Shown: in pieces, positions 40,215 through 46,469 of the stretch
Numbering within the stretch: position 1 is the stretch's first letter
How the letters are laid out: every line of letters starts with the position of its first letter
Virus record (IMG/VR): IMGVR_UViG_3300023179_008242
Coordinates: 1 to 59,875 of that record
Origin: a virus
DNA: 59,875 nt
Strand: one strand, 5' to 3'
Program-made: the position numbers and the translations under genes
Notes under the pieces: model-generated
What the model was told of the DNA's origin: nothing
Database searches by the model: none
Seen by the model: the letters and a program-made list of their open reading frames with translations, nothing else

Positions 40215-40243
40215 TTGATTTTAATGGCAAGTCTGACTAGATT
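40215..40243 (+). promoter_or_regulatory. Sigma70-like promoter of the PrkA-YeaH-SpoVR operon
   Basis: TTGATT (40215-40220), a 17-nt spacer and TAGATT (40238-40243), 32 nt before the prkA-like start. The same TAGATTAC-like -10 region occurs before the replicative helicase gene. Confidence 0.55.
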
Positions 40244-40275
40244 ACATTGGATACACATCCGAAAGGAATGCCAAT

Positions 40276-42354
40276 ATGAGCGACGCACTGCGAAGGCTCT
40301 CTTCTAGGTTCGACAGGGATAAGTTCAGGAAGATCAACGAGGAGATGTCGTTCGCGGAGTACCTCGACCTCGTATACGAGAGGCCGCGCCTAGCCCGCAC
40401 CGCTTACCAGTACCTGTACGATATGATCGTCGGCAAGGGCTCCAACAAGATCGAGAGATATAGGAAGACCTACATCCGATACGACTTCTTTGACAGGGCC
40501 GACATGCCGATTTTTGGCCTCGACGAAACGCTCCACCAGATCGTCCAGTTCTTCAAGGGCGCCGCCGGTGGATACGGCCCGGACAGGAGGGTTCTCCTGT
40601 TGCATGGCCCGGTCGGCAGCTCCAAGTCGACCATACTCCGCTGCATCAAGAAGGGCCTCGAGGACTACTCCCTGACCGATGAGGGAGCGTGGTACACGTT
40701 CAAGTGGGTCAACCTGCCCACCGGCAAGGACGACGGGATATACACGCAGGCTGAGGACGAGTCCCCGATGCACGAGGACCCCCTCAAGCTGCTTCCTACC
40801 GACATGCGCAGGGAGGTTCTCTCAGACCTCAACGGGATTCTGACGGAGCAGACCGCGGAGCAGGACAGGACTTCCTTGTACAGGCTTTCCGTCGAGGGCG
40901 ACCTGGACCCGCGCTCCAAGAGGTTCATGCAGGAACTCCTCCTGAAGTACGACGGCGATTGGGGCAAGGTCGTCGAGAACCACATCCGCGTCGTACGGAA
41001 GGTGCACAACGAGGCCGAACGATGCGGCATAGCCACCTTCCAGCCCAAGGACGAGAAGAACCAGGACAGCACCGAACTCACCGGGGACGTCAACTGGGGC
41101 AAGCTACCCCACTTCGGAACGGACTCGGACCCGAGGGCCTTCAATTTCGACGGCGAATTCTGTGTGGGAAGCAGGGGTCTTGTGGAGTTCATCGAAGTTC
41201 TGAAGCTGGCGAAGGAGTTTCTCTACGACCTCCTCGGGGCGAGCCAGGAGAAACAGATCAAGCCCAAGAAGTTCCCCCAGATATCAGTGGACACCGTCCT
41301 CATAGGCCACACCAACTCCCCGGAGTTCCAGAGGCTCAAGAGCGACCAGACCATGGAGGCCCTCCGCGACCGCACGGTGAAGATAGACGTGCCCTATCTT
41401 CTCAGGTGGAGCGACGAGATCAAGGTTCTTGAGCACCATTACTCCAAGGACAGGATCAAGCAGCACATCGCCCCGCACACGCTTGAGATCGCGGCTCTCT
41501 GGTCCGTACTGACCAGGCTTCAGGAAGACAAGGACGGCAAGATCAGCCTTGTGGAGAAGGCGAAGTTGTACGACGGCAGGAATCTCCCGGGATGGACGGA
41601 GGACAGCGTCAAGGAGATGCGCGACAAGTACCCCGAGGAGGGCATGTCCGGCATAAGCTGCAGGTACACGCAGGACAAGATCAGCAACTGCCTCAGCTCC
41701 CACTACGACTACATCAATTTCTTCATGGTGCTCAACGAGCTGAAGATGGGGCTTGACCACCAGTCGCTGATCAACAACCAAGAGGACAAGGCCAGATTCG
41801 TGCAGTGCATCGACCACGCGAGGAAGGAACTCGACGAGATTCTCAAGAACGAGGTGCAGAAGGCTCTCGTCGGTGACGAGAAGGCGATAGAGAGGCTGTG
41901 CTCCAACTACATCGACAATGTCATGGCCTACATCAACAGGACGAAGATTCGCAATCCGTTCACCGAGCAGGACCAGGAGCCGGACGAGAGGCTTATGAGG
42001 TCGATCGAGGAGAAGATCGACATCCCAGAGGTGGGGGCGGACGACTTCCGCAGGATGCTCGCCGGCTTCATCGGCAACCTTGCCCACAAGGGCAAGGAGT
42101 TCCGCTGGGACAGCAACTCCCAGCTGAAGAGGGCCCTTGAGTCCAAGCTTTTCGAGGACACCAAGGATCACATCAAGCTCTCCGCTCTGGACATCAAGGG
42201 CGCCGCGGTGGTCGACAAGGATGTTCAGGAAAAGATAGACGCCGTCAAGAAGCGCCTCATAGACCAGTACGGATACAACGAAAAGTCGGCCACCGACGTG
42301 CTTACCTATGTGGCGTCGATATTCGCCCGCGGGGACGTCTCCGAGGACGACTAA
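40276..42354 (+). CDS. prkA: PrkA AAA+ serine protein kinase/protease homologue
   Basis: 692 residues, full-length compared with bacterial PrkA/YeaG (about 640). Walker A is GPVGSSKS (111-118). The strongly conserved PrkA block is present: DVNWGKLPHFG, DPRAFNFDGEFCVGSRG, FLYDLLGASQE, and KKFPQISVDTVLIGHTN. The C-terminal PrkA kinase region follows (NCLSSHYDYINFFMVLNEL). In bacteria PrkA acts with YeaH and SpoVR in stationary-phase and starvation responses; B. subtilis PrkA is reported to be Lon-protease-like. It is first gene of the three-gene module, with its own promoter. Confidence 0.93.
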   Translation: MSDALRRLSSRFDRDKFRKINEEMSFAEYLDLVYERPRLARTAYQYLYDMIVGKGSNKIERYRKTYIRYDFFDRADMPIFGLDETLHQIVQFFKGAAGGYGPDRRVLLLHGPVGSSKSTILRCIKKGLEDYSLTDEGAWYTFKWVNLPTGKDDGIYTQAEDESPMHEDPLKLLPTDMRREVLSDLNGILTEQTAEQDRTSLYRLSVEGDLDPRSKRFMQELLLKYDGDWGKVVENHIRVVRKVHNEAERCGIATFQPKDEKNQDSTELTGDVNWGKLPHFGTDSDPRAFNFDGEFCVGSRGLVEFIEVLKLAKEFLYDLLGASQEKQIKPKKFPQISVDTVLIGHTNSPEFQRLKSDQTMEALRDRTVKIDVPYLLRWSDEIKVLEHHYSKDRIKQHIAPHTLEIAALWSVLTRLQEDKDGKISLVEKAKLYDGRNLPGWTEDSVKEMRDKYPEEGMSGISCRYTQDKISNCLSSHYDYINFFMVLNELKMGLDHQSLINNQEDKARFVQCIDHARKELDEILKNEVQKALVGDEKAIERLCSNYIDNVMAYINRTKIRNPFTEQDQEPDERLMRSIEEKIDIPEVGADDFRRMLAGFIGNLAHKGKEFRWDSNSQLKRALESKLFEDTKDHIKLSALDIKGAAVVDKDVQEKIDAVKKRLIDQYGYNEKSATDVLTYVASIFARGDVSEDD

Positions 42355-46406: not shown

Positions 46407-46410
46407 AAAC

Positions 46411-46469
46411 GCCCGCCCGATGGGGCCGAATCTTCGGGCAAACTGCGGTCTTCGGGTTTGGTTTTTTTT
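46411..46469 (+). terminator. Terminator after the SpoVR gene
   Basis: A first stem pairs GCCCGA with TCGGGC. A second, CAAAC/GTTTG (46439-46460), is followed at once by eight T residues (46462-46469), the only clear hairpin-plus-U-tract in this part of the window. It separates the PrkA module from the ClpP-like gene. Confidence 0.6.

Follow-up and report, generated by a model that had tools for sequence, protein, structure and literature searches.

The DNA analysed here, a linear IMG/VR record of 59,875 bases (the window), is a fragment of a phage genome that carries an operon for the proteins PrkA, YeaH and SpoVR, whose last gene is interrupted by an active-looking homing intein. Its features are in our view probably best explained by an old phage-specific lineage of the module that has acquired a homing intein in SpoVR and whose products would act in the remodelling of proteins. 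Compared to a previous sequence-only reading of the same DNA, our analysis has confirmed a real operon, it has revealed an overlooked mobile intein and an old phage lineage, and it calls for a narrower interpretation. Although PrkA, YeaH and SpoVR are widespread in bacteria, their biochemistry is disputed. Phages that have retained the complete set offer compact and divergent versions for biochemical investigation, and a natural experiment on their essential parts.

Organization of the operon

The operon spans positions 40276-46406 with all three genes located on the + strand (Table 1). Their arrangement in the bacterial order and their tight packing, with a gap of 12 nucleotides between PrkA and YeaH and an overlap of 4 nucleotides between YeaH and SpoVR, had been recognized in the sequence-only reading and are confirmed here, with each gene scoring well over the Pfam gathering score. 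In case of PrkA, the scores amount to 261 bits for PF08298 and 257 bits for PF06798 (gathering score 25). The protein contains a P-loop, whose Walker A sequence GPVGSSKS is found in most cellular relatives, and it matches the related PDB entry 9xip with an E-value of 1.6e-207. With 202.5 bits it stays below the cut-off of 576 of NF011999, which describes equivalogs of YeaG from E. coli, and the gene is thus a PrkA but no YeaG equivalog. YeaH reaches 213.8 bits for PF04285 (gathering score 27) and it contains the MIDAS motif DxSxS as DGSAS, while its 300 bits for NF003711 are below the equivalog cut-off of this model. SpoVR scores 313.7 bits for PF04293 (compared to 27) and 30.9 bits for the C-terminal domain PF24755 (compared to 27.6), and it contains the motifs HxxGH and NEGxA. 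No significant sequence relative of the protein was found in the PDB. The initial description of full-length genes with intact motifs therefore holds for the motifs, all of which are present, but not for the length of SpoVR, which is split by the intein.

Table 1. Features of the module and its immediate neighbours in the window.
Feature	Position	Strand	Evidence and remarks
FmdB-type zinc-ribbon protein, 116 aa	39860..40210	+	PF09723, TIGR02605; directly upstream of PrkA
PrkA, AAA+ ATPase with PrkA C-terminal domain, 692 aa	40276..42354	+	PF08298, PF06798; no intein
YeaH/YhbH (DUF444, VWA-type), 402 aa	42367..43575	+	PF04285
SpoVR precursor ORF, 944 aa	43572-46406	+	PF04293
SpoVR N-extein, 297 aa	43572..44462	+	PF04293 first stretch; H124/H128 (HxxGH), E294 (NEG)
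Intein, 412 aa	44463..45698	+	PF14528 (LAGLIDADG_3) 77.7 bits, PF14890 33.3 bits, TIGR01443
SpoVR C-extein, from Ser710 of the precursor	45699..46406	+	PF04293 second stretch, PF24755
ClpP-like serine protease	46524..47210	+	PF00574 76.5 bits

The control elements that were thought to frame the operon did not withstand closer inspection. The candidate for a sigma70-like promoter (TTGATT-17-TAGATT, 40215-40243) matches in 8 of 12 positions, which is below the threshold of the scanner, and promoter-like sites in the region occur at chance level (4 found compared to 3.0 expected). Similarly, the region of the proposed hairpin terminator contains a T8 tract, but its folding is no better than that of shuffled sequences (z = 0.02) and it is absent from the list of the scanner. 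Since the ClpP-like gene starts 118 nucleotides downstream of SpoVR on the same strand, the operon may extend past SpoVR.

Distribution and ancestry of the module

The described neighbourhood of phage replication and tail genes is borne out by a UvsX-like recombinase, DnaB helicase, DNA polymerase A, a single-strand binding protein, ThyX, several helicases and fn3 tail proteins. The nearest relative among deposited phages is the 595-kb metagenomic phage LR756511.1, whose unannotated record shows the same gene order, with a PrkA that is 66% and an intein-less SpoVR that is 57% identical to the respective proteins of the window, and at least one close relative of the phage is thus a huge phage.

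The module is by no means unusual among phages, with about 95 distinct viral copies found in our analysis. SpoVR and a serine kinase are annotated in the record of Thermus phage phiYS40, and SpoVR and PrkA in the jumbo phage RsoM2USA (PMC8504454). Our viral scans contain 68 PrkA loci, nearly all with three genes, and the distinct SpoVRs amount to at least 74 in phages with the order PrkA-YeaH-SpoVR (group A) and at least 22 in phages with the order YeaH-SpoVR-PrkA (group B, including phiYS40), both numbers being lower bounds as the SpoVR scan kept 80 of 258 relatives. The genes YS40_056-059 of phiYS40 resemble the window in that they encode a phage-borne YeaH, SpoVR and PrkA, but they are arranged as YeaH-SpoVR-x-PrkA, contain no intein and encode a PrkA that is only 31% identical.

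The ancestry of the module is reflected in PrkA trees, for which the cellular side was limited to the 80 nearest sequences and three outgroups. In the tree calculated with IQ-TREE, 26 of the 28 PrkAs from group-A phages cluster together (support 100/99), the 28 nearest cellular proteins constitute a separate clade (100/98), and the group-A proteins L035 and L038 branch just outside of both. The nearest cellular PrkAs, with identities of 53-56%, originate from Myxococcota, Planctomycetota, Bdellovibrionota and Chloroflexota. As group-A phage PrkA forms its own deep clade, the phages most likely obtained the module at an early time and have kept it by descent, and it most likely constitutes an old phage-specific lineage that was retained in a large group of tailed phages. 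A recent capture from a host was rejected for the window phage on the basis of the PrkA trees within the described cellular sampling, with L035 and L038 standing apart. The phage copies share the three families and their order with the bacterial PrkA-YhbH-SpoVR operon (of the yeaG/yeaH/ycgB type), but they differ from it by their separate clade, their phage-only neighbours (zinc ribbon, ClpP-like) and the presence of inteins in several of them.

The same data bear on the concern that the window might be a host or chimeric assembly, where bacterial operon DNA was joined to a phage contig. Such an arrangement might be suspected from Enterobacter phage LAU1 (L247, 1-3308), whose record opens directly with yeaG and yeaH, which have the appearance of host DNA that flanks the phage. 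However, the module is common to independent IMG/VR contigs and LR756511, and since neighbours and gene order are the same in independent contigs, a chimeric origin of the window is extremely improbable. It is also contradicted by the location of PrkA among phages in the described tree and by the zinc-ribbon, HldE and ClpP neighbours, which are shared by many viral loci but absent from all cellular loci fetched. In 60 of 100 group-A loci, the zinc-ribbon gene lies no more than 500 bp from PrkA, and in 50 of the 99 group-A loci with enough flank, the ClpP-like gene is located within 1 kb downstream of SpoVR (neither set de-duplicated). The absence of the latter from the cellular loci has to be read in light of their shorter flanks and of near-duplicates among the viral loci.

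Further genes of the window include an HldE-like fusion of a PfkB kinase and a cytidylyltransferase (37344-38702), which occurs in 68 loci of group A, counted without de-duplication. A phage sugar metabolism is suggested by this gene in combination with an epimerase at 14178-15623 and a weak match to a glycosyltransferase at 34806-35846. A protein of 1616 residues with a DUF285 (Mycoplasma-type) region is encoded at 6525-11375 on the - strand and is possibly involved in host contact. Downstream of the module, an ORF for a C-5 cytosine DNA methyltransferase (48549-50240) has related genes in eight group-A loci.

The intein of SpoVR

The SpoVR ORF encodes 944 residues, compared to about 530 in its relatives, because 412 of them are part of the intein. 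Its Pfam match is divided into two stretches with a break at profile residue 271, and LAGLIDADG_3 and intein-splicing domains are located in between. The intein separates A297 from S710 and interrupts the invariant motif NEG(W/H)A. It starts with Cys298 following NEGHA and ends with His708-Asn709 preceding Ser710. It thus combines, at the level of sequence, the hallmarks of a class 1 intein, including Cys1, a block-B histidine (His66 in intein numbering), the C-terminal His-Asn, the +1 nucleophile Ser, a precise insertion and two LAGLIDADG endonuclease motifs at residues 478 and 577 of the precursor. An alignment shows no variation of the splicing residues among phage and bacterial alleles, and the solved structures closest in sequence are intein entries of the V-ATPase/VMA-type. 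The score for the Intein_splicing family PF14890 is slightly under its curated cut-off of 35.8 bits, which might indicate that the extra residues form a functional insertion domain of SpoVR or a dead remnant instead of an intein. Such a shortfall is usual where an endonuclease splits the splicing domain, and we consider this alternative very unlikely in light of the complete set of splicing residues, a score above the cut-off for the NCBIfam model of intein C-termini TIGR01443 (22.6 compared to 15.6), a dN/dS of about 0.17 between the inteins of the window and L014, and the endonuclease-free mini-inteins found at the identical residue in Chloroflexus. It is also opposed by exact empty sites, as in the intein-less LR756511, where the sequence NEGWA-SFIDY continues uninterrupted exactly at the insertion point. 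In the literature searched, we found no paper that treats SpoVR and an intein together. A SpoVR intein of Chloroflexus aurantiacus is listed in InBase ('Cau SpoVR').

The location of the intein suggests that the precursor would have to excise residues 298-709 to rebuild the helix NEGHA-SWVDY, and SpoVR would thus be expected to be inactive until splicing has occurred. The LAGLIDADG endonuclease would cut intein-less alleles at the insertion codon, whose repair would copy the intein into the gene.

Evidence for mobility comes from a comparison of the window with L014, where the DNA of the intein is 97.4% identical (dN 0.013, dS 0.077) compared to 86-87% in the SpoVR exteins (87.1% for the flanking exteins, with dN 0.049 and dS 0.697), and where third positions are identical in 392 of 412 codons of the intein but in 372 of 532 codons of the exteins (Fisher p 3e-25). 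The identity is raised over about 450 nucleotides of the upstream extein, as expected of co-conversion, and drops within about 100 nucleotides downstream. In the extein tree, the intein shows a patchy distribution, exemplified by L149, which contains it, and its sister L036, which does not, and at least two changes in its presence are forced by well-supported branches. The gap in divergence between intein and exteins and the patchy presence both show a mobile intein that has recently moved horizontally between related phages, with the window and L014 providing a clear trace of recent homing. An assignment to anti-phage defence was dropped, as the matches found by PADLOC concern only the homing endonuclease.

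Among the 74 distinct group-A phage SpoVRs examined, a lower bound for this group, nine contain inteins. Four of them (in the window, L014, L144 and L149, identical copies included) are inserted at site a (NEGHA/S, with the slash marking the insertion) and five (in L114, L145, L150, L152 and L153) at site b (VVN/TNPC), the latter family showing 37-55% identity among its five divergent phages. Two of at least 69 distinct group-A PrkAs also contain inteins, at DGEF/C (L031:6918-8087) and DAR/S (L043:6660-8000), which are different sites adjoining conserved PrkA motifs, and SpoVR is intein-free on both contigs. LR756504, another huge phage, contains a mini-intein of 129 residues in SpoVR at NEG/C, two residues from site a. 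In total, 12 distinct intein alleles were counted in the phages, distributed over five sites in SpoVR and PrkA. A search of viral contigs with the intein yielded a single weak match besides its own alleles at site a. Close to the module, a DNA polymerase III alpha-like ORF (L024:14078-16702) also contains an intein.

Site a is also occupied in bacteria, with SpoVR inteins located exactly at this position in a Planctomycetota genome, Chloroflexus islandicus, Oscillochloris and two other Chloroflexota. Among 101 sampled Chloroflexota genomes, 31 contain SpoVR and four of these show the same split. The inteins of Chloroflexota, as in C. islandicus, are inserted at the identical residue (NEGWA/S) and, in the intein tree, phage and bacterial site-a inteins group together with the mini-intein of LR756504 (97/98), separate from those of site b. 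The Chloroflexus alleles differ from the intein of the window by the lack of the endonuclease, which is kept in Oscillochloris, whose intein is 43% identical. The site-a inteins can thus be tracked in phages as well as in bacteria, and the phage alleles at five sites, one exactly shared with bacterial SpoVR, point to conserved and probably indispensable residues.

Possible roles of the module

In the mechanism that we propose, PrkA would act as an ATP-driven AAA+ remodelling motor, which YeaH, by its VWA/MIDAS domain, would couple to substrates, and SpoVR would serve as a zincin-like, possibly metal-binding effector. Together, the three proteins would most likely remodel proteins during infection, be it in proteostasis, enzyme activation or assembly. 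AAA+ motors that are paired with VWA proteins to remodel or activate a third protein are found in RavA-ViaA, NorQ-NorD, CbbQ-CbbO and the chelatase I-D pair and, by analogy, SpoVR may be the protein acted on by PrkA and YeaH. Protein remodelling is favoured since a ClpP-like protease or GroEL often adjoins the module, and the previous suggestion of a role in protein quality control finds some support in these neighbours, the former in group A and the latter in group B, where a GroEL-like chaperonin is located upstream of YeaH in marine phages (L046:2541-4166 and ten further loci). Against this interpretation counts that both neighbours are found in only part of the loci and that the module of Thermus phage Lalka8 is located among head genes instead. 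As for PrkA itself, the purified protein from B. anthracis, which was assigned to AAA+ clade III, showed negligible kinase and protease activity (PMC13001217), whereas an earlier report, as cited in the same paper, described the B. subtilis protein as a weak protease.

The assignment of SpoVR is based on a model of the intein-less protein L043, which is about 85% identical to that of the window (pLDDT 89.8). In this model, the invariant H126 and H130 share a helix and E296 belongs to a different one (H124, H128 and E294 in the window). The best matches obtained with VIA-align are mostly zincin metallopeptidases with Z of about 6-11, where M32, DPP III and BepA (Z 5.8-8.7) rank below 3o0y (Z 11.1) and 3cmn (Z 9.8). 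Since a Foldseek search against the PDB gave no match at E <= 0.001, the relationship to zincins rests on the moderate Z of VIA-align. In the window, Ala takes the place of the catalytic Glu of HExxH, which makes a peptidase activity doubtful, and we hypothesize that SpoVR would be a zincin-derived effector that binds metal via H124, H128 and E294.

We rank general protein remodelling first, with a takeover of host dormancy and a role in virion assembly as rivals on an equal footing, each of which appears possible but rather unlikely. In the former, a module of stationary phase and starvation would keep a starved host productive or steer its dormancy, in line with the requirement of yeaG for adaptation to sustained nitrogen starvation, as stated in PMC4664914, and of bacterial prkA in sporulation and under osmotic stress (PMC13001217), and with PhoH-like genes that adjoin some group-B modules. 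This is at odds with an old and phage-specific clade, and with neighbouring genes for replication, nucleotide metabolism, ClpP/GroEL or the head, among which no clear dormancy genes were seen. In virion assembly, motor, adaptor and SpoVR would fold, remodel or mature head proteins, as might be expected from the location of the genes between portal/minor head protein and TerL in Lalka8 and close to TerL in phiYS40, from the match of the ClpP-like neighbours of group A to PHROGs of head-maturation proteases and from the GroEL upstream of the group-B modules. In contrast, the ClpP-like gene of the window is below the cut-off of the head maturation protease model NF045542 (64.6 compared to 120). 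In group A, DNA polymerase is the commonest annotated neighbour and neither portal nor capsid is among the top families, and head morphogenesis as a general role, as suggested by Lalka8, was dropped on the basis of these tallies, where DNA polymerase and ClpP appeared in place of portal or capsid. Considerably less probable than either rival is a further extension of the remodelling proposal, in which the module would be a core remodelling machine of a large phage group and a repeated target of homing inteins that pass between phages and their hosts, and where splicing in the active-site helix of SpoVR would serve as a post-translational switch. If this were the case, splicing would delay or condition the activity of SpoVR during infection.
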